From a virus: a DNA stretch of 39,960 nucleotides. Made by a program: the position numbers and the translations under genes. Shown here in pieces: positions 1-39,960 of this stretch; position 1 is the stretch's first letter, and each line of letters begins with the position of its first letter. The notes under the pieces are model-generated. The model was given only the letters and a program-made list of their open reading frames with translations, did not search any database and was not told the DNA's origin. Location of the stretch: positions 1-39,960 of the IMG/VR virus record IMGVR_UViG_3300049459_000074. One strand, written 5' to 3'.

Positions 1-127
1 AAAAGCGACCTTGAGAATCAGGAAGCACAGCGACAGCGCGCGCAGGATCTGCTTAAGACCTCGTCGGAATACTGGCAAGGTGGCGGCATGACCGCACCTT
101 CGTTCCCTGGCGGGCAATCGGCGGCGC
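1..127. repeat. Terminal overlap, copy 1 (circular closure)
   Basis: The first 127 bases are identical to 39834-39960. The reading frame ending at 1131 is open from base 1 and continues in frame from the ATG at 39594 through the junction. This shows that the molecule, or its assembly graph, is circular. A length of exactly 127 is typical of an assembler k-mer overlap rather than a biological terminal repeat, which is my preferred reading. Confidence 0.95.
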
Positions 128-1131
128 AAATGATGGGCGGCCTAGTGTCTGGTGCAGGTGCAACGCAGCCGCAGCAGCAAGAGCAGGCGCCTCAACCTGG
201 CGGGCGTAATGCAAGCCCGTATCAACAACGCCTGGCATACGCTCAATACCTGCGCTCCAAGGGCTACGGCGCCGAGGCTCAGGCTGAGGAAGACTCGGCC
301 CTGAAACTTCAGCCGAAAGTGAAGGAATGGCAGAAGGTGCAGCAAGGCGGCAAAGTGATGTATGCCCCGTACTTCGAAGATGGTACTAGCGGCCAGCCGG
401 TCCCACTGGAAGTGGCCGAGAAGCTGGATGCGGTGAACCGCGGCGGCGCTACGGATATGGTCAACCCTTATACCGGCGCGACCGTTCGCAGTCTGGCGAA
501 TAGCATTTCGCCAGATACGGCAGCTACCGTTGGCGTGCAGCGTGATCGCCTCGCTTTCGATAAAACGCAGGCAGGTAAGCCAACGTTTAGCGCGGATGCT
601 GGTGGATTCATCTACGCCCCGAGTGCAAGCGCTCCACAAGGTGGGTTTGTGCCTGCCGCTGGCTTCGTTAAATCCGGCGATAAGCAAAAGGTGCAGGACG
701 CCTCTGACGTTCTGTCCATCCTCAATCAAGCCGAACCGCTGATCAAAACCGCGACCGGGAGCTATGGCGGCGTCGCTGTTGACCAAGCTGCGCGCCTGTT
801 CGGATCAAGCACCGCTGGCAGTCAGGATGCGGCCAAGCTCAAAGCCCTAGAAGGCAATCTTGTCTCCAAGATGCCGAAGATGAGCGGCCCTCAGTCGGAC
901 AAAGATGTCGCCATGTACCGCCAGATGGCCGGTCAAATTGGTGACCCAACTGTCCCAGTAGCGGACAAACAGGCCGCAATCGAAACGATTAAAGAAATTG
1001 CTGCGCGCAATGCGGGCAAAAAATACATCAGCCTTTCGGATATTGCCGAAACCGCCCGCCGGAGTGGCAAGACGACTGCAGAAGTAACGGCGGCTGCTCA
1101 TGCCAAAGGTTATGTGATTGGAGGCCAGTGA
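1..1131 (+). CDS. Virion/DNA-ejection-type protein, C-terminal part (gene split by the circle junction)
   Basis: This is the 3' part of the gene starting at 39594; joined, it encodes 456 residues. The frame is open from base 1, so the ATG at 88 is internal. The visible 376 residues begin with a charged helical stretch (KSDLENQEAQRQRAQ), then a Gln/Gly/Pro-rich linker, then a mixed helical domain with no motif I know. Its place between the Ala/Gln/Asn-rich gene at 38434 and the large gene at 1131 matches the block of internal ejection proteins in P22-like and similar podophages. The stop codon overlaps the next start (TGATG). The ejection role is inferred from position and composition, not from a recognised domain. 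Confidence 0.75.
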   Translation, partial: KSDLENQEAQRQRAQDLLKTSSEYWQGGGMTAPSFPGGQSAAQMMGGLVSGAGATQPQQQEQAPQPGGRNASPYQQRLAYAQYLRSKGYGAEAQAEEDSALKLQPKVKEWQKVQQGGKVMYAPYFEDGTSGQPVPLEVAEKLDAVNRGGATDMVNPYTGATVRSLANSISPDTAATVGVQRDRLAFDKTQAGKPTFSADAGGFIYAPSASAPQGGFVPAAGFVKSGDKQKVQDASDVLSILNQAEPLIKTATGSYGGVAVDQAARLFGSSTAGSQDAAKLKALEGNLVSKMPKMSGPQSDKDVAMYRQMAGQIGDPTVPVADKQAAIETIKEIAARNAGKKYISLSDIAETARRSGKTTAEVTAAAHAKGYVIGGQ

Positions 1132-2846
1132 TGCCAGGACGCGACCTTAGCGCCGAACTGTTCGGGGATGCTCAGCCAGCGAAGGCTGGCGGGCGTGATC
1201 TATCTGCGGAGTTGGGCCTTGCGGCGCAACCTGTGTCTGCCGGCGGAGAGCGCAACCTTGCTTCGCTCATCACCGGCAAGGCCGCTCCTATTAGCCGCAT
1301 GGACAAGCTCAGTTATGGCCTGATGGACCCGATTAACGGCGGCGCTCAACTGCTGACCAAATCGCTGCCAACGGGAGTCGTTGAAGCGGGTAATAAACTC
1401 AACAACTGGCTAGCCGATAAGACTGGCCTTGTAGCTCGACTGCCGGAGGGTGGCGTTGATCAGCAAGTGCGAGAGGATGAGGCAAAGTACCAAGCTCGCC
1501 GGGCCGCTGCCGGTGAATCAGGTTTCGACGGCTATCGCGTCACCGGCAATATCGTGTCACCGGTGAATTTGGCGCTTGCTTCGCGGCTGCCAGCGGCAGC
1601 AACAACGGTTGGCAAGGTGTTGACTGGAACTATTAGTGGAGCGATTTCTAGCCTGTTTAATCCGGTCGCCGGTGGGGACTTCTGGACGGAGAAGGGCAAG
1701 CAAGCGGCTACTGGCGCCGCAACTGGTGGCGCACTTCCTGCGGTCATCGGCGGCGTGGCTCGTGTCGCCAGCCCAAGGGCATCGACAAACGCTAGCTTGC
1801 AGCTTCTGAAGGATGAGGGCGTGCAGCCGACCATCGGTCAGGCTTTGGGCGGTCGCTGGAACGCGCTTGAAGAAAAGCTACAGAGTTTGCCTCTGGTCGG
1901 TGACGCCATTGTAAACGCACGGAAGCGCTCAATGGAGCAATTCAACCGTGCGGCGATCAATCGAGCCACCGGCAAAGTTGGTACTGAGGTCGATAGCATC
2001 GGTCAGACCGGCGTGCGCGAAGCTGGTGACACGATCTCCCAGGCATACGACGACGCTCTTAGCCAAATTTCAGGTGTCAAACTGGACGGCCAGTTTAATC
2101 GAGACCTGTTGCAGCTACGTGGAATGGCGCAGGGTCTGACGAGCACGATGAAGGCGAAATTCAACAATGCCGTCAATGAAACCCTGATGCGCAAGGTTTC
2201 GCCTAACAAGTCGATCCTTCCTGAAGACTACAAGGCCATCGACAGCGAACTTGGTAACTTGGCTTCGCGTTATGGCAAATCATCCGTAGCAAGCGAACAA
2301 GAACTAGGCGATGCCGTGACTCAGCTTCAGGCGCTGCTTAAACAGCAGATGTTACGAACGAATCCTGATGTCGCAGGCAAGCTGCAGGCAGCAGATGCAG
2401 CTTGGGCTAATCTGGTACGCGTCGAGGGCGCGGCAAAGTCCGCTAAGAATGCTGAAGGCGTATTCACGCCAGGCCAGCTCAATATGGCTGTCCAGGCTGC
2501 GGACCGAAGCGTGCGCAAACGTGCCGTCTCGCGCGGTACAGCTCTCCTGCAGGATCTCGGCAACGCCGGCCAATCCGTCCTTGGTAACAAGGTTCCCGAT
2601 AGCGGCACGGCTCAGCGCTTGATGTACGGTGCGGGCGCCCTTGGTACTGGCATGGTCAACCCGGCGATTCCGGCTGCATTACTCGGCGGCGCAGCACTCT
2701 ACACATCACCGCTGCAACGTGCGCTGGTAGGCGCGGCGAGTTCGCGCCCAGCTCTTGCCCAGCCATCTGCCGAACTCCTCAGGAAGACCGCACCCTACCT
2801 TGTCCCGGCGGGTGCGCAATTTGGCCTTGGTGTACTCAATCAGTAA
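1131..2846 (+). CDS. Large internal virion / DNA-ejection-type protein
   Basis: The product is 571 residues from the ATG that overlaps the previous stop; a GTG one codon earlier is possible. The N-terminus has a short internal repeat (GRDLSAEL twice, around residues 3 and 22). Ala/Gly-rich, weakly hydrophobic segments follow around residues 140-210 and again in the last 80 residues, flanking a long helical middle with charged heptads. Large proteins with amphipathic and glycine-rich hydrophobic patches placed just before the lysis genes are typical of podophage ejection proteins that enter the cell envelope with the DNA. No enzymatic motif (for example a transglycosylase) is visible. The function is inferred from context. 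Confidence 0.7.
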   Translation: MPGRDLSAELFGDAQPAKAGGRDLSAELGLAAQPVSAGGERNLASLITGKAAPISRMDKLSYGLMDPINGGAQLLTKSLPTGVVEAGNKLNNWLADKTGLVARLPEGGVDQQVREDEAKYQARRAAAGESGFDGYRVTGNIVSPVNLALASRLPAAATTVGKVLTGTISGAISSLFNPVAGGDFWTEKGKQAATGAATGGALPAVIGGVARVASPRASTNASLQLLKDEGVQPTIGQALGGRWNALEEKLQSLPLVGDAIVNARKRSMEQFNRAAINRATGKVGTEVDSIGQTGVREAGDTISQAYDDALSQISGVKLDGQFNRDLLQLRGMAQGLTSTMKAKFNNAVNETLMRKVSPNKSILPEDYKAIDSELGNLASRYGKSSVASEQELGDAVTQLQALLKQQMLRTNPDVAGKLQAADAAWANLVRVEGAAKSAKNAEGVFTPGQLNMAVQAADRSVRKRAVSRGTALLQDLGNAGQSVLGNKVPDSGTAQRLMYGAGALGTGMVNPAIPAALLGGAALYTSPLQRALVGAASSRPALAQPSAELLRKTAPYLVPAGAQFGLGVLNQ

Positions 2847-2977
2847 GCCGTATAAGCCAACCCCCAAGGCGGAGGCGGCTGCGCGGACGACGTTATCGTT
2901 CATCTTGCCAGTGTAGCACTGATTTATTAGCAACCCATGGGTTTCCTCATATGAAACCACTAACCGAGAGGCCTACG

Positions 2978-3148
2978 ATGGTAGACCATGTTAAGACCGT
3001 AACCGATGCTGCTGCCTACACTGCTGCGGCAGCATCGCTTTGCGGCCTGCTCCAGCCTATCGCGGCCTTTATTGCCTCGATGTTGTCCATCATCTGGCTT
3101 TGCCTGCAGATGCGCGACTACCTGCGTAAGAAGCGGGGTGGCGAATGA
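2978..3148 (+). CDS. Small holin-like membrane protein
   Basis: The product is 56 residues. I chose the ATG at 2978, which follows a GAGAGG ribosome site, over the ATG at 2951. A short charged N-terminus is followed by a hydrophobic region (about residues 12-45) that can form one or two transmembrane helices, and a basic tail (RDYLRKKRGGE). The size, the charged C-terminus and the immediate overlap with the lysozyme gene (ATGA) are the usual marks of a holin. Holins permeabilise the inner membrane so that the endolysin reaches the wall. The family cannot be named with certainty. Confidence 0.75.
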   Translation: MVDHVKTVTDAAAYTAAAASLCGLLQPIAAFIASMLSIIWLCLQMRDYLRKKRGGE

Positions 3149-3588
3149 ACCCTGAACACGTGACGGGCCAGCTTCAGGCAGACGAAGCCCTGCGCCTCAA
3201 ACCCTACGATGACGCTACCGGCAAGGAGCTGCGCCCCGGTGATCGGCTGATTGGAAAGCTGACCATCGGCATTGGACGGAACCTTACCGATAACGGTATC
3301 TCTGGAGCAGAAGCGTACATGCTCTGCAATAACGATGTGCGCGGCACGATCCGAGAGCTAGACCGCGCGCTGCCGTGGTGGTCGAAGATGAGCGACAACC
3401 GCCAGGACGCGCTCCTTAACGCGGCTTTCAATTTGGGTGTCCCGCGTCTGCTCGGCTTCAAGAACGCGCTGGCTCTGCTGGAGGCTGGCCGATGGGATGC
3501 TGCTGCTGCTGAGTTTTTGGATAGCAAGTGGGCAAACCAAGTCGGCGACCGCGCCAAGCGTATCGCTGACGCTATCAGGAAAGGATGA
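3145..3588 (+). CDS. Endolysin, T4-type lysozyme (GH24 muramidase)
   Basis: The product is 147 residues and hydrolyses the glycan strands of peptidoglycan at lysis. The catalytic Glu is at about residue 14 in DEALRLKPYDD, followed by the LTIGIGRNLT segment that carries the conserved Thr and Gly residues of the family. NAAFNLG and the C-terminal helices also match GH24. The length is typical of phage lysozymes. There is no signal or SAR segment, so export should depend on the holin. The start overlaps the holin stop and the stop overlaps the next start, giving a tightly coupled lysis cassette. Confidence 0.92.
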   Translation: MNPEHVTGQLQADEALRLKPYDDATGKELRPGDRLIGKLTIGIGRNLTDNGISGAEAYMLCNNDVRGTIRELDRALPWWSKMSDNRQDALLNAAFNLGVPRLLGFKNALALLEAGRWDAAAAEFLDSKWANQVGDRAKRIADAIRKG

Positions 3589-4001
3589 CTATGTGGCCGC
3601 AACTTATCCCCCTTCTCGGCAACCTGTTTGACCGGATCTTCCCCGACCCGAAAGCCGCAGCCGATGCAAAACTTGAAGTAATGAGGCTGGCTCAGGCTGG
3701 CGAGCTGGCCCAACTGAACGCCGATCTGCAGCTTGCTACCGGCCAAATTGAGGTGAACAAGGTAGAGGCGGCGAACGCTTCTCTGTTCGTCTCAGGCTGG
3801 CGTCCTGCGATTGGCTGGATCTGCGGCGCAGCGTTCGCCTTCAAGTTCATCGGCGGCCCGGCTGCCTTCGTCCTGTCGCAATGGGCGGGGCATCCAATCA
3901 CGCTGCCAGTGTTCGATTTCACGGAGATGAGCACAATCCTGCTTGGCATGTTGGGACTCTCCGGGATGCGTACCGTAGAGAAGATCAAGAACGTAGCCTA
4001 A
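3585..4001 (+). CDS. Holin-like 3TM family protein (GTA_holin_3TM type)
   Basis: The product is 138 residues. An amphipathic N-terminus and a helical charged region (KAAADAKLEVMRLAQ) are followed by hydrophobic segments around residues 70-90, 92-105 and 112-128, with the family-like SGWRPAIGWICG and LGMLGLSGMRTVEKIK motifs. The family is found in gene-transfer agents and many phages next to lysozymes. The start at 3585 overlaps the lysozyme stop; the ATG at 3591 is equally possible. With the small gene at 2978 this gives two holin-like proteins, so one may act as a modulator. Confidence 0.85.
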   Translation: MTMWPQLIPLLGNLFDRIFPDPKAAADAKLEVMRLAQAGELAQLNADLQLATGQIEVNKVEAANASLFVSGWRPAIGWICGAAFAFKFIGGPAAFVLSQWAGHPITLPVFDFTEMSTILLGMLGLSGMRTVEKIKNVA

Positions 4002-4010
4002 GGAGAGCGC

Positions 4011-4787
4011 TTGAAGATCCTATTCCTGCCAGACACCCAGGCCCGTCCTGGCGACGATTTCTCTTTCCTGCGCCGCATCGGCCACTACATCGTGGACAAA
4101 AAGCCTGATGTCATAGTGCACGCTGGCGACTTCGCGGACATGTGCAGCCTCAGTATGTACGACAAGGGTAAGAAGTCGTTCGAGGGGCGCCGCTATCGCC
4201 TGGACGTGAAAGCTGCTCACGATGCCATGGAAGCTCTACTCGGCCCAATGCGCGAGTACAACGAGATGCGCTTGCGGAACAAGAAAGCCCTGTATCGCCC
4301 GCGCATGGTGCTCACCCTCGGCAATCACGAGGACCGTATTAATCGAGCCATCAGCAATGATCCGATCCTAGACGGCACGATCAGCACTGACGACCTGAAA
4401 TATGCCGAATACGGGTGGGAGGTGTATCCGTTCCTGCAGGTGGTCGTCATTGCCGGGGTGGCGTTTAGCCATTATTTTCAAACCGGAGTGATGGGCCGTC
4501 CGGCGTCCTCAGCACAGGCACAACTCAACAAGAAGATGATGTCTTGTGTAGCAGGCCACCAGCAGGGGAGGCAGATCGCTTCGACCTATCGTGCGGACGG
4601 GAAGCGTATTACGTCGATTATCGCTGGCTCCGCCTACGAGCACCCTGAGGAATATCTTGGGCCGCAAGGTAATCAGCACTGGCACGGCATCGTCATGCTG
4701 CACAACGTCGAGGACGGTCAGTTTGACGAGATGTTTGTCCCGCTGACGTGGATCAACGAGAAATACTCTGAAAAAGCTGCCGCGTGA
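4011..4787 (+). CDS. Calcineurin-like metallophosphoesterase
   Basis: The product is 258 residues from a TTG start that has an AGGAG ribosome site directly before it. Metal-binding motifs are visible: PDTQ (D8), HAGDF (D40), LGNHED (N105, H106), a later SHYF histidine and AGHQQG. In the first motif the usual His of DxH is Gln. The family hydrolyses phosphomono- or diesters; the substrate cannot be told. It lies after the lysis genes and before the attachment region, a usual place for phage accessory genes. A nucleic-acid processing role is possible but unproven. Confidence 0.85.
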   Translation: MKILFLPDTQARPGDDFSFLRRIGHYIVDKKPDVIVHAGDFADMCSLSMYDKGKKSFEGRRYRLDVKAAHDAMEALLGPMREYNEMRLRNKKALYRPRMVLTLGNHEDRINRAISNDPILDGTISTDDLKYAEYGWEVYPFLQVVVIAGVAFSHYFQTGVMGRPASSAQAQLNKKMMSCVAGHQQGRQIASTYRADGKRITSIIAGSAYEHPEEYLGPQGNQHWHGIVMLHNVEDGQFDEMFVPLTWINEKYSEKAAA

Positions 4788-4803
4788 GCTGTACACTTGG
4801 CGG

Positions 4804-5109
4804 ATGAGACTACTCATCTGCCTCCTCATCCTCGCACTTCCTGCCGATGCTGGCGAACGCATCAAGCGCGATCCGAAGGCCGTCCGGATCTTCCGCGCTA
4901 GCGTGCCATGTCCAGCGACCGCGAAGCTGGAGAAGCGCTGTCCTGGCTACGTGGTTGATCACATCATTCCACTATGTGCAGGCGGCGCTGATGATGCCGG
5001 GAACATGCAATGGCAATCGGTTGAGGACGCCAAAATCAAGGACCGGGCTGAGCGGGAGCAATGTCGCAAACGCTCAAAATCTAGCGGCGATATCAATCCA
5101 GATGCTTAG
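4804..5109 (+). CDS. Small HNH nuclease-like protein with signal peptide
   Basis: The product is 101 residues. The N-terminus looks like a Sec signal peptide (MRLLICLLILALPADA, cleavage likely after Ala16). The mature part has an HNH-type core: VVDHIIPLCAGGADDAGNMQWQ, then a Lys-containing helix. Three cysteines could form disulfides outside the cytoplasm. Exported HNH proteins of this size occur in proteobacterial prophages; the role is not established to my knowledge. In the prophage it would sit at the end next to the integrase, the usual site for lysogen-expressed genes. Its last 17 bases overlap the convergent integrase gene. The ribosome site (TTGGCGG) is weak. Confidence 0.75.
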   Translation: MRLLICLLILALPADAGERIKRDPKAVRIFRASVPCPATAKLEKRCPGYVVDHIIPLCAGGADDAGNMQWQSVEDAKIKDRAEREQCRKRSKSSGDINPDA

Positions 5110-6106
5110 CCATTTCCTCTGCTGTCTCGTTGTAGTAGATCTGGAGCTTGCGCAAATCTCTATGTCCTGTCATGCGCGCCAGGTCGAGAACGCTCTTAAA
5201 TTTCTTGGCTAGGCGGGTAATCGCAAGGTGGCGGGAGTCGTGGAAAGTGCCTTCCTCAATCACCGCTCGCGTTTTGGCCTTGCGGAAGAGGGCGTCTAGC
5301 CTTCCCGGTGTCAGGCCGAACAGCGGCTCATCGGCCGCAACTTCTGGTAGCAGGCTCAGAAGTTCAAGGGCGCGCTTGGACAGCGGCACATCCCGGCTCG
5401 TTCCGTTCTTCGTGTCTTTCAGCTTCGCCACTCTGCCAGTGATGCTGGCTTTCTTCAGGCCGCAGATCTCGCCAGCTCGCATTGCCGTTTCGATGGCGAA
5501 TAGGAAAGCGACTGCTGCCCGCTGGGAAGTGGTGGCGACTGGAATCGTCTGGTCTATGTTGAAACCGAGCGCTAGACAGATCCTCTTTACTTCGTCATCC
5601 GTGTAAAGATGGTCCCTTGGCGGCGGGTCTTTGGGCCTGCGCACATCCGTGGTGGGTGACTTGGCGATCCACTTCCACTCGCGCGCAGCCGACGAGAAAA
5701 CGTGGGATAGTAGATTCAGATCGCGATTAACGGACGAGCCTAGCACTTTGTCAACGTTAAGCCGGTGGTCTCGCCACTTGCCGATGACATCAGGCGTGAT
5801 GTCCACTAAGCGCATATCCTTGAGCGCAACGCCCTCGATTTCCGTCCTGCCTATTGCTGTCATACGCAAGATTTCATGCCTGTGTCCTTTCTTATTGGCG
5901 GACACTTCTTTTTCATAGCGGGCGAAAGCGTCATCGAGAGTACGCCACCTCTGCACGCCGGCACTCGCGCCTTCCCTGATTTCGGTCTCTCGTTTGGCCG
6001 CCCAGCTAACCGCCTCAGCCTTGGTAGCGAACGTCTTTGACTCACGTACGCCTAAGACTGCGATCTGAGCCCGCCAACCACCTTCTCTCTTGGCTATAGA
6101 TGCCAT
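5093..6106 (-). CDS. int: Tyrosine recombinase, phage integrase
   Basis: The product is 337 residues and joins attP to the chromosomal attB and, with a directionality factor, reverses this. The N-terminal part (residues 1-55) fits an arm-binding domain, residues 56-150 a SAM-like core-binding domain, and the rest the catalytic domain. Catalytic residues are visible: R210 in TAMRAGE, a Lys near 231-233, H289 and R292 in FHDSRHLAITR, H315 in TGHRD, and the nucleophile Y324 in LQIYYN. The ATG is preceded by AAGGGGTG. A promoter candidate overlaps the arm repeats upstream, so integrase may repress its own transcription. Confidence 0.96.
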   Translation of the reverse strand: MASIAKREGGWRAQIAVLGVRESKTFATKAEAVSWAAKRETEIREGASAGVQRWRTLDDAFARYEKEVSANKKGHRHEILRMTAIGRTEIEGVALKDMRLVDITPDVIGKWRDHRLNVDKVLGSSVNRDLNLLSHVFSSAAREWKWIAKSPTTDVRRPKDPPPRDHLYTDDEVKRICLALGFNIDQTIPVATTSQRAAVAFLFAIETAMRAGEICGLKKASITGRVAKLKDTKNGTSRDVPLSKRALELLSLLPEVAADEPLFGLTPGRLDALFRKAKTRAVIEEGTFHDSRHLAITRLAKKFKSVLDLARMTGHRDLRKLQIYYNETAEEMAKHLD

Positions 6107-6128
6107 GCAACACCCCTTGTTTCCCTAG

Positions 6129-6169
6129 TGGCGTAATTATGGCGTAAAAATGGCGTAACTCAAGCGTAA
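6129..6169. repeat. Integrase arm-type sites, four repeats at 11-bp period
   Basis: Four copies of an 8-bp unit (TGGCGTAA three times, then AAGCGTAA) start at 6129, 6140, 6151 and 6162, exactly 11 bp apart, about one helical turn. They lie between int and the core. This matches the arrangement of arm-type sites bound by the N-terminal domain of tyrosine integrases. Two more copies lie on the other side of the core. Confidence 0.85.
6136..6163 (-). promoter_or_regulatory. Candidate integrase promoter overlapping the arm repeats
   Basis: On the minus strand TTGAGT (6158-6163) and CATAAT (6136-6141) are separated by 16 bp, a reasonable sigma-70 promoter reading into int. The elements lie within the arm repeats, so integrase binding would block transcription. 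Confidence 0.55.
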
Positions 6170-6282
6170 AAAGAGTGGTTTACAGAGGCTCACAGTCGTA
6201 TTGGCGGGCCCTGCGGATTGAGCTTAAGTCATTGATTTATATTGGAGAGTTGCTTAAAGTGCGGCAATGCGGATGGGGTATG

Positions 6283-6302
6283 TGGTGCCGGTGACCGGAA
6301 TC
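6283..6302. other. attP: attP core: tRNA 3'-end identity
   Basis: Read on the minus strand, these 20 bases end in CCGGCACCA and begin at the T-loop GATTC, exactly as a tRNA gene from position 57 to the CCA end. The acceptor strand implied by the sequence would be GCCGGTG. Beyond 6302 the tRNA pattern stops, as expected at the edge of an att core. Arm repeats flank it on both sides. Integration would rebuild the tRNA 3' end. The isotype cannot be determined from 20 bases. Confidence 0.8.
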
Positions 6303-6336
6303 AGATGCTGAGTAAAATCAACATCTTGTAATGCCT

Positions 6337-6355
6337 ATGCGTAATTTAGGCGTAA
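6337..6355. repeat. Integrase arm-type sites, second arm (two repeats)
   Basis: ATGCGTAA at 6337 and AGGCGTAA at 6348 are again 11 bp apart and match the repeats at 6129-6169. They complete the two-arm attP layout around the core at 6283-6302. Confidence 0.8.
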
Positions 6356-6379
6356 AGAAAAAGCCGCGCTGAGGCGGCT
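6351..6379 (-). terminator. Rho-independent terminator of the leftward early operon
   Basis: On the minus strand a 6-bp stem (AGCCGC/GCGGCT, 6362-6367 with 6374-6379) with a 6-base loop is followed by TTTTTC. It sits just after the excisionase-like gene and before attP, so it would stop leftward transcription before it enters int. Confidence 0.85.
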
Positions 6380-6383
6380 AATT

Positions 6384-6656
6384 TCAGTTCTTGTCCTTGT
6401 ATTTCTTGGCCCAAGCAATCACTTCCTTAGCCTCGTACAGTGGGCGCCCGCGCTCTGCTCTGGATGACGGCGGGCGGATAGCCTTGGGAAAGTCCGGTAG
6501 GCAGGCAATGCGCTCTCTTACAACCGCATCACTTCGCTTGAGATACGCTGCTACTGTCGCAGTATCCCACAAATCGATTTCGACCGGGATGGCGGGCTTG
6601 GTCAGGCCGCCAAGTGCTTCAATCAGTTGTTTGATGAGTTCATGATCGCTGTGCAT
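6384..6656 (-). CDS. Excisionase-like / AlpA-type helix-turn-helix protein
   Basis: The product is 90 residues. The ATG at 6656 has a perfect AAGGAGG site, whereas the longer frame to 6776 does not. Residues 28-90 have the layout of a MerR/AlpA-type DNA-binding fold: LWDTATVAAYLKRSDAVVRERIA followed by a wing region with PLYEAKEVIAWAKK. Proteins of this type next to an att site act as recombination directionality factors. It is the last gene of the leftward operon and lies on the opposite side of the attP core from int. Confidence 0.72.
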   Translation of the reverse strand: MHSDHELIKQLIEALGGLTKPAIPVEIDLWDTATVAAYLKRSDAVVRERIACLPDFPKAIRPPSSRAERGRPLYEAKEVIAWAKKYKDKN

Positions 6657-6657
6657 G

Positions 6658-6807
6658 TCAATCCTCCTTCTTCGCTTCGTCCTTGGGTTGCTGCCCCGGC
6701 AGTGGTGGCGGCACGTACTGCTCTTTCTTCGGCTTCTCTCCCCATATGCGGGAATGCCCGTCTTCGTATCCCTCACCTGGTCGTTGCCAGCTTCCTTTAA
6801 CGCCCAT
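6658..6807 (-). CDS. Small hypothetical protein, Pro/Lys-rich tail
   Basis: The product is 49 residues starting at 6807 behind an AAAGGAGA ribosome site. The N-terminus (MGVKGSWQRPGEGYEDGHSRIW) is followed by a charged, proline-rich tail (YVPPPLPGQQPKDEAKKED). It fits between the genes at 6797 and 6384 with a 1-base gap to the next start. I do not recognise it. The start codon and gene spacing are the main support. Confidence 0.65.
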   Translation of the reverse strand: MGVKGSWQRPGEGYEDGHSRIWGEKPKKEQYVPPPLPGQQPKDEAKKED

Positions 6808-7351
6808 CGTGTTCTCCTTTCTGCTGCTGTCCAAGTTTGCTAAGCTGGTCGTGGTCCATCGTGTCGTATGCTGTCGGCTGCGCGGTATTGCCAGGAGCAG
6901 GAGCGGCGCAGACCGGCACCATGTCGGCGTCGTATTGCTTGGCGTAGACGCGGCCATAGTGGCGCGTGGGCACGTCTTCGCGCGCGGCTGCCAGCAAACC
7001 CGTGATTTCATCCGGCTTCATCCATGCGACCGAAGTGGCGTTCGCGCTTGCGCCCTGCCAGCCGCGCTGCCAGATCAATCGGCAAACCTGCTCATTCGTC
7101 AGCTGGTGGCGCTGTGCTGCGTACCACTGATCGAAAGCCGCATCGCATTGCGCCGGCACAGCCTCCCCAGCACTGCGAGCGGCCCAGGTGTCGATGTGGG
7201 CGATGAGGGTTTTGCGCGCTTTGGCATGCGATCCGTAAGACGCTTCATCGTCATACTCATCCAGTAGCTTCCGGAACTCCGGCGTATCAATGCTCCATCG
7301 CTCTCCTGCAGTAGTAGCGGAGGAAGGGGCGCTGTTGGTTTCGTAGGTCAT
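6797..7351 (-). CDS. Hypothetical phage protein
   Basis: The product is 184 residues. The start at 7351 overlaps the methyltransferase stop (ATGA) and has TGGAGG upstream. Residues 100-150 (QVCRLIWQRGWQGASANATS, then WMKPDEITGLLAAAREDVPT) resemble segments seen in accessory proteins of temperate phages. No catalytic motif or membrane segment is visible, so I give no function. It probably belongs to the modular accessory set of this operon. Confidence 0.72.
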   Translation of the reverse strand: MTYETNSAPSSATTAGERWSIDTPEFRKLLDEYDDEASYGSHAKARKTLIAHIDTWAARSAGEAVPAQCDAAFDQWYAAQRHQLTNEQVCRLIWQRGWQGASANATSVAWMKPDEITGLLAAAREDVPTRHYGRVYAKQYDADMVPVCAAPAPGNTAQPTAYDTMDHDQLSKLGQQQKGEHDGR

Positions 7352-8049
7352 GCTAAAAGCCTCCATGCTGTTGCAGCCACGATTGGGTCTTGTCCGTTGC
7401 CAATGGCGCGGTTCCGGTCCATCCGATCGGCCATGCCATCAGGTTTTCCCAGAAATCCGGGTTCACATACAATTTCCCGGTTGGGGTGCTGCGCAGTTTG
7501 TTCCCGCTTCCCCCAAGCTCCTGGAAGGTGCCACCCCACCGGTTTGAGCCATGGCATGGAGTCGGCCACGATCCAGATCCTTTCGCGCCCGTGATGGGCG
7601 CCCAGGTCGTCAGATCCAAGCACTCCCCATCGCGCATCGAACCCCAGCGAGGCCAGCATTCCGAGAACGGCTCCAAGTCCTCTATGAGTGAGCATTGGCG
7701 AGTTTTCCATCTCGACGAAACGTGGTCGAACTTCGCGAATGATCCTTCCAGCTTCCAGATAAAGTCTGCTTGCTTCGCCCTCAATGCCCGCCTTCTTTCC
7801 GGCCGAGCTAATATCGGTGCAAGGGAATCCCGCCGTAACCACGTCAATATGGCCGCACCAAGGGCGTCCGTCGAAGGTACGTACATCGTCCCAAATGGGG
7901 AATGGTGCAAGGTGCCCTTCATTTTGTCGCTGCATGAGTCGTCGGGCGCAAAAGGCGTTGATTTCCACGGCAACAGCGGTTCTCCATCCGAGCAGCTTGC
8001 CGCCGAGAATGCTTCCTCCAGCGCCTGCGAAAAGTGCCAACCCATTCAC
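7348..8049 (-). CDS. DNA (cytosine-5) methyltransferase
   Basis: The product is 233 residues from a GTG start at 8049 with AAAGGAGA upstream. It transfers methyl groups from S-adenosylmethionine to C5 of cytosine in DNA. Motif I is LFAGAGGSILGG (residues 6-17), motif IV with the catalytic Cys is GFPCTDIS (C77), motif VI is VEMENS (E115), motif VIII is GRERIWIVA, and a GNG motif X is near the C-terminus. The region between VIII and X is short, so target recognition is compact. No restriction enzyme is next to it, so it probably protects phage DNA. Its first 131 bases overlap the upstream gene in another frame. Confidence 0.92.
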   Translation of the reverse strand: MNGLALFAGAGGSILGGKLLGWRTAVAVEINAFCARRLMQRQNEGHLAPFPIWDDVRTFDGRPWCGHIDVVTAGFPCTDISSAGKKAGIEGEASRLYLEAGRIIREVRPRFVEMENSPMLTHRGLGAVLGMLASLGFDARWGVLGSDDLGAHHGRERIWIVADSMPWLKPVGWHLPGAWGKREQTAQHPNREIVCEPGFLGKPDGMADRMDRNRAIGNGQDPIVAATAWRLLA

Positions 8050-8578
8050 CTGACCTCTCTCCTTTGTTGTTCGTCGGCTGCTCGCCTTCCTTATCGGCAA
8101 TAGCCGCAGCCAGCTTCGCAAGCTCCTCGTTCCACGGCTCCATATTCACAGTCGGGTTAGCGATGTGCTGCTGCTGGCTCCACGATGCCGGGCAGTGACC
8201 AACCCACCAGTCGAGAACAGCTTTGCGCAGCACTGATTGTTCGCCGGCTTGCTTGCGCAGGTAGTGGGCGATGGCTTCGCGCCCGAACTGCTGCATCTGC
8301 TCGGCGGTGTAGCCGTCCTGGCTGGTGATGGTGCCGTTGTCGTGGTACGTGTCGATCGGCCCCTCATGCTTCGGCAGCGGCGGCAGATCTCCAGCACCTA
8401 CAGCGTCAGCAGGGGTGCGGCGGGCGGCGAGCCAGACTTCCCATCCGTTTTGAGTGTTGGAGTCGACATACCCACAGTCATGCCACTTGTTTGTGCTGTA
8501 GCCTTTGCGGATGCACCAGGCTTCAAAGTTCGCGCGCTCGGCTTCAATGCTCGCGCCTTGGTTCAGGTTATTGGACAT
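7919..8578 (-). CDS. Accessory protein whose 3' end overlaps the methyltransferase gene
   Basis: The product is 219 residues. The ATG at 8578 overlaps the previous stop (TAATG). The N-terminal part contains ANFEAWCIRKGYSTNK and GWEVWLAARR, a module common in accessory proteins of temperate phages. The middle (DGYTAEQMQQFGREAIAHYL) is also phage-like. The last 44 or so residues are very Arg-rich and are encoded opposite frame over the methyltransferase start region. That tail may be a by-product of a lost stop codon. The function is unknown. Confidence 0.68.
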   Translation of the reverse strand: MSNNLNQGASIEAERANFEAWCIRKGYSTNKWHDCGYVDSNTQNGWEVWLAARRTPADAVGAGDLPPLPKHEGPIDTYHDNGTITSQDGYTAEQMQQFGREAIAHYLRKQAGEQSVLRKAVLDWWVGHCPASWSQQQHIANPTVNMEPWNEELAKLAAAIADKEGEQPTNNKGERSGEWVGTFRRRWRKHSRRQAARMENRCCRGNQRLLRPTTHAATK

Positions 8579-39593: not shown

Positions 39594-39960
39594 ATGGGTC
39601 TGTTAGCAAATTTCCTTGGTATGAGCCCGGAGCAAACGCAGGGGCTCCTTAATTTCAGTGCGGCACTGGCGAAAAGTTCTGGCCCGAGCCGTTTCCCAAC
39701 CTCCGGCGCCCAAGGGTTGGCAGAAGCTCTCCAGGGATATCAACAGGGCGTTAATGGGTATCAGGATCGTCAGTTAGGGCTGGAGCAAGCGAAGCAGATT
39801 GCGCAGCTCCGCGACTTTGCGATCCGTGACAAGAAAAGCGACCTTGAGAATCAGGAAGCACAGCGACAGCGCGCGCAGGATCTGCTTAAGACCTCGTCGG
39901 AATACTGGCAAGGTGGCGGCATGACCGCACCTTCGTTCCCTGGCGGGCAATCGGCGGCGC
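39594..39960 (+). CDS. Virion/DNA-ejection-type protein, N-terminal part (continues at base 1)
   Basis: This is the 5' part of the 456-residue protein whose remainder is at 1-1131. AAAGGAAAA precedes the ATG. The N-terminus (MGLLANFLGMSPEQTQGLLN) and the helical region (GYQQGVNGYQDRQLGLEQAK) run unbroken across the junction, which proves closure in frame. The last 127 bases are the terminal overlap. Confidence 0.85.
   Translation, partial: MGLLANFLGMSPEQTQGLLNFSAALAKSSGPSRFPTSGAQGLAEALQGYQQGVNGYQDRQLGLEQAKQIAQLRDFAIRDKKSDLENQEAQRQRAQDLLKTSSEYWQGGGMTAPSFPGGQSAA
39834..39960. repeat. Terminal overlap, copy 2 (circular closure)
   Basis: This is an exact copy of bases 1-127. Removing one copy gives a 39,833-bp circle. 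The segment lies inside the virion gene that starts at 39594. Confidence 0.95.

Follow-up and report, generated by a model that had tools for sequence, protein, structure and literature searches.

A lambda-type attP with a tRNA-derived core in a temperate phage genome, and the spacing it shares with relatives of its integrase

Introduction

Upstream of the integrase gene of the phage studied here, short repeats spaced by 11 bp flank a segment that reads as the end of a tRNA gene. Do these elements make up the phage attachment site, and if so, which host tRNA gene does it use? The window, i.e. the whole stretch of DNA that was analysed, is the phage genome IMGVR_UViG_3300049459_000074, positions 1-39,960. 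Its first and last 127 bp (1-127 and 39834-39960) form an exact direct terminal repeat, from which we take the genome to be circularised, with a length of 39,833 bp. Searches of the phage collection gave only short matches (60-80%) for positions 1-8000 and no megablast relative of 15000-39960. A DNA methyltransferase gene (phrog_363) is found at 7348-8121 on the minus strand.

Results

Architecture of the attachment site

The region 6125-6360 almost certainly serves as attP for a temperate phage whose integrase is a bivalent tyrosine recombinase of the lambda type, acting at the 3′ end of a host tRNA gene. It is in its unintegrated form, with both arms present. The features of the region are collected in Table 1.

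Table 1. Features of the attP region and its surroundings (distances in bp from the CCA end of the tRNA-derived core unless stated otherwise)
Feature	Position	Strand	Description
int	5093-6106	-	337-aa tyrosine integrase: N-terminal arm-binding, core-binding and catalytic domains
Integrase-side arm array	6131-6169	-	Four TTACGC units in 11-bp steps
Canonical integrase-side units	6131-6136, 6142-6147, 6153-6158	-	Registers 146, 135 and 124
Extra fourth integrase-side unit	6164-6169	-	Register 113; relatives lack it
Putative int promoter	6136-6163	-	TTGAGT-16-CATAAT; 9/12 consensus match
IHF site	6225-6237	-	AATCAATGACTTA; exact WATCAANNNNTTR; 46 bp past the CCA end
attP core	6283-6303	-	TGATTCC-GGTCACC-GGCACCA; tRNA gene 3′ end
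Predicted half-site, right	6283-6289	-	GGCACCA
Predicted 7-bp overlap	6290-6296	-	
Predicted half-site, left	6297-6303	-	T-loop, TGATTCC
Second IHF site	6316-6328	+	AATCAACATCTTG; exact consensus; 12 bp from core
Far-side arm array	6339-6355	-	TTACGC at 6339-6344 and 6350-6355; registers 62 and 73
Intrinsic-terminator-like hairpin	6362-6379	-	Between the upstream gene and attP
Putative helix-turn-helix protein	6384-6656	-	90 aa; candidate excisionase

The initial annotation, made from the letters of the window, described six arm repeats in 11-bp phase around a tRNA-derived core. All six units are where it placed them, with the common 6-mer TTACGC on the minus strand (GCGTAA on the plus strand, starting at 6131, 6142, 6153, 6164, 6339 and 6350). 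It was thus right about the repeats and the core, but overlooked two exact IHF sites. TTACGC occurs 19 times on both strands of the window, and exact pairs at the 11-bp step number four, all within attP. When up to 2 mismatches are allowed, the window holds 9 pair matches compared to a mean of 3.0 in shuffled sequences, none of which (0/100) reached that number. Repeated arm-type sites lie on either side of the core, as in a lambda-type attP. If bound by integrase, units at this step would place all of the arm domains on one face of the helix.

On the minus strand, 6283-6302 reads GATTCCGGTCACCGGCACCA, which is identical to the final 20 bases of real tRNA genes, as had been proposed. The core is thus a tRNA 3′ end that integration would restore, and the int-side junctions of relatives indeed retain complete tRNAs. 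Perfect IHF consensus matches are found three times in 40 kb, two of them between the core and the arms, where a lambda-type attP has its IHF sites; in the window, these are sites of predicted binding.

The integrase gene and its neighbourhood

The int product matches PF00589 (E 9.5e-18) and phrog_1 (integrase). Residues R210, K233, H289, R292, H315 and Y324/Y325 are invariant among 21 sequences and make up the R-K-H-R-H-Y catalytic set. The AlphaFold model (pLDDT 89) has full-length lambda Int (1z1b) as its top PDB match. In this predicted structure, the N-terminal domain consists of three strands (residues 3-7, 10-17 and 20-26) and a helix (29-49), i.e. the separate arm-binding domain of a lambda-type bivalent integrase.

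The -10 box of the putative int promoter, CATAAT, sits between arm units, and NATAAT occurs there in 17 of the 62 upstream regions described below. Since the promoter falls within the arm array, the integrase is probably self-repressing, and the analogy with KplE1 (see below) likewise suggests autorepression through this box. On the other side of attP, the product of the gene at 6384-6656 matches phrog_4996 (E 1.6e-16; function unknown) and phrog_668 (HTH DNA-binding; E 1.2e-4), with no match in Pfam or NCBIfam and none to an AlpA/Xis-type excisionase family profile. Its position and the weak HTH profile match indicate that it may be the excisionase.

Relatives of the integrase share a nearly fixed geometry

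We assembled 62 distinct upstream regions, window included, from integrase relatives in genomes and viral contigs. Of these, 35 lie directly behind a complete tRNA gene, namely: tRNA-Leu in 28 (TAA 14, CAA 11, TAG 3), tRNA-Arg(CCT) in 4 and tRNA-Thr in 3. The initial annotation had named prophage junctions of close relatives at a different sequence as the observation that would speak against it. The 74% relative in Massilia sp. YIM B02443 (L002/L053) is also located at a tRNA end: its prophage lies at tRNA-Leu(CAA), bounded by direct repeats at a distance of 38.5 kb. These repeats start with the GATTCC of the window, and the far-end copy begins with TGATTCC, like the window core. Both the prophage junctions of relatives and the 35 regions behind complete tRNAs support the attP interpretation.

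Across the family, the parts of the site keep nearly base-pair-exact spacing while the targeted tRNA changes. The integrase-side units are at 124, 135 and 146 bp exactly in 22 of 31 loci (in two of these, only two units were detected), and 30 of the 31 deviate by no more than 2 bp. The far-side registers, 62 and 73 bp, also recur in the attP of relatives and are occupied in most free attP copies. The window obeys all of these registers, with the unit at 113 as an addition. Upstream of int, self-matching is highest at lag 11 (0.62 vs. ~0.38 in a control region). The 11-bp pattern itself served to find 12 of the 62 regions, and a 12-bp pattern one more; when these 13 are left out, lag 11 is still the best in 26 of the remaining 49. 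In viral contigs, an integrase homolog is found within 3 kb of 20/61 triple TTACGC arrays at an 11-bp step, 0/22 at 10 bp and 1/80 at 12 bp. The 11-bp phase first noticed in the window is hence real, family-wide and specific to that step.

The IHF sites follow the same pattern. Of the 26 regions in which a site can be detected (≤1 mismatch), 24 have it at +46 from the CCA end. At this threshold, 26/49 loci have a match compared to 4.5/49 in shuffles, with one mismatch needed in 16 of the 26 and no match in 23/49; exact matches number 10/49 against 0.3 expected from shuffles. The 12-bp distance between core and far-side IHF site is also seen, with ≤1 mismatch, in L013, L015, L017, L116, L133, L134 and L137, as well as in the Massilia attR (L028).

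Several other features were noted among these sequences. In eight loci (L059, L061, L064, L065, L069, L074, L079 and L116), the phage DNA immediately behind the tRNA carries a terminator-like hairpin with a T run, in many cases near the +46 IHF position, as though the tRNA received a new terminator from the phage. The integrases of L005 (codon 11) and L061 contain in-frame stops, suggesting decayed prophages. L230, with a distant integrase (28%), carries TTACGCC units at a 12-bp step immediately before the start codon. Finally, L083, L085, L118 and L132 each have an opposed pair of triple 11-bp TTACGC arrays, 164-188 bp apart, with no homolog of the window integrase within 3 kb; these could belong to another integrase family or to an origin.

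Core and probable point of strand exchange

In relatives located at tRNA genes, the core reads TTCGANTCC (with few exceptions), followed by seven variable bases and then usually GGCACCA, which is replaced by GGGACCA in the Arg relatives and by CGCACCA in the Leu(TAG) relatives. In free attP copies, the seven bases and GGCACCA match the tRNA, and it is the left half-site that differs. In addition, GGTGC-like inverted repeats flank seven bases in four distant relatives (PAN70, TRS1, L043 and L026). Judging from these comparisons, exchange probably takes place in the 7-bp overlap GGTCACC/GGTGACC, between the T-loop and GGCACCA. In an automated inverted-repeat test, the 7-bp spacer was not statistically distinct from other spacings, so that an overlap of this length is a likely one.

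Candidate target tRNA genes

The acceptor GCCGGTG implied by the core, as given in the initial annotation, is real: it is found in the tRNA-Thr(CGT) of L050-L052 and in the tRNA-Leu(TAA) of L032. The annotation further proposed to look for a host tRNA with the same 20-base end and a prophage next to it. Such tRNAs exist, and the one in L032 is occupied by a 51% integrase relative; no integrated copy of this exact phage was found in the genomes searched. Similarity searches with the tRNA of L032 did not lead to its host.

We somewhat favour the tRNA-Thr(CGT) gene of a Burkholderiales host as the target. The 23-mer TTCGATTCCGGTCACCGGCACCA is the precise end of tRNA-Thr(CGT) in G533 and in three of the 399 Burkholderiales genomes sampled, and the Massilia tRNA-Thr(CGT) differs from it by one base. 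Two relatives of 52-60% (L059 and L073) occupy tRNA-Thr(CGT). Against this target, 28 of the 35 mapped relatives use tRNA-Leu, and searches in the genera of G722 and G866, two genomes with the exact tRNA-Thr end, turned up no window-like integrase.

As a tentative alternative, the target could be a tRNA-Leu(TAA) gene of the L032 type, whose acceptor is GCCGGTG. L032 contains a complete tRNA-Leu(TAA) with an identical 23-mer end that is already occupied by the 51% relative, and tRNA-Leu is the commonest target in the integrase family. However, this type of tRNA-Leu was not found in 294, 369 and 399 genomes (partly overlapping samples drawn from the Massilia relative's family, class and order), so that its host would be rare or outside the sample. 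Within the 294 genomes of that family, no host tRNA matches exactly.

Arm motif and integrase N-terminal domain

The family varies in the arm motif itself but keeps a step of close to 11 bp. Arrays of the TTGCCAAA/TTGGCA type accompany 7/7 integrases with a WxHR-type N-terminal domain and 0/55 others, in classes that were drawn after inspection of the data and with seven integrases that share ancestry. The integrases of L013 and L015 share 97% identity beyond residue 50 and 74% up to that residue; their arm units on the integrase side are not the same, whereas the DNA next to these units, toward the core, is ~95% identical. From these sequence comparisons, the arm motif class appears to track the integrase N-terminal domain.

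These observations bear on whether the 11-bp repeats are instead operators or iterons for another phage protein, such as a repressor or excisionase, a highly improbable reading that gains from the excisionase sites of phage 186 Apl, which can be direct repeats one helix turn apart (PMC7498355), and from the 41 of 61 triple 11-bp TTACGC arrays with no window-integrase homolog within 3 kb, but is contradicted by the arm units at fixed registers on both sides of the core and by the variation of the motif with the N-terminal domain.

Returning to the repeats as arm sites, the chances are about even that these integrases form an undescribed subfamily with a fixed attP chassis and two cassettes swapped in evolution. 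Counted from the CCA end, the chassis would have arms at 62/73 and 124/135/146 bp and an IHF site at +46, with the other IHF site 12 bp from the core. One cassette would be the 7-bp overlap, which picks the tRNA (Leu, Thr or Arg); the other would unite the arm motif and the N-terminal domain of the integrase.

Discussion

The attP reading draws on the arrays, the IHF consensus sites, the tRNA-end core, the family geometry, the prophage junctions of relatives and the lambda-like fold, to which our model adds predicted protein binding, overlap position, autorepression and an excisionase. The N-terminal domain of the integrase would read the TTACGC arm units, while its core-binding and catalytic domains would act on the tRNA-derived core. 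IHF, bound at one site per side, would bend the DNA and thereby bring the arm-bound integrases to the core, which would account for the nearly base-pair-exact spacing. Strand exchange in GGTCACC, between half-sites TGATTCC and GGCACCA, would recombine the core with the 3′ end of the host tRNA gene and rebuild the tRNA. Following integration, int and the four-unit arm would lie behind the tRNA, with the two-unit arm at the other prophage end, and the integrase would repress its own gene via the promoter inside the arm array.

What stands out in this otherwise ordinary lambda-type attP is a fixed chassis combined with an exchangeable tRNA segment. No description of this geometry was found in the literature searched, mostly freely accessible papers. 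The family rule makes it possible to tell, directly from sequence, where the attP, arm sites and IHF sites of an unannotated integrase lie and which tRNA it targets. Furthermore, the comparison suggests how such integrases shift between tRNA genes, which is useful in prospecting for integration tools.

Comparison with known systems

As a lambda-type attP located at the 3′ end of a tRNA, the window site is mechanistically known in kind. With lambda (1z1b; PMC4880445) it shares a bivalent integrase, separate arm and core sites with IHF between them, and a full-length fold match. Unlike lambda, its arm sites are TTACGC in strict 11-bp tandem, its core is a tRNA 3′ end, and it has one IHF match per side, whereas lambda has H1, H2 and H′.

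At attL of KplE1, located at argW, an arm site of IntS overlaps the -10 box, IHF is used, and autorepression has been demonstrated (PMC2951348). The window resembles this system in having the integrase gene behind a tRNA upon integration, an arm site at the -10 box, and IHF sites. The tRNA is a different one, however, and autorepression in the window is a prediction.

Acinetobacter phage vB_AbaS_TRS1 (KX268652) has a 47% identical integrase and an annotated attP with TTACGCC-like units on both sides. In contrast to the window, it has two units per side, and no complete tRNA end can be recognised in its core, GGTGCG-CTCGGCG-GGCACT. Mycobacteriophage Ms6 also uses the 3′ end of a tRNA for integration, and a changed attP core redirects it to another tRNA gene (PMC1762012). 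For Ms6, exchange has been proposed inside the T-loop, whereas in the window the overlap appears to be formed by the 7 bp that follow the T-loop, with the T-loop itself as a half-site.
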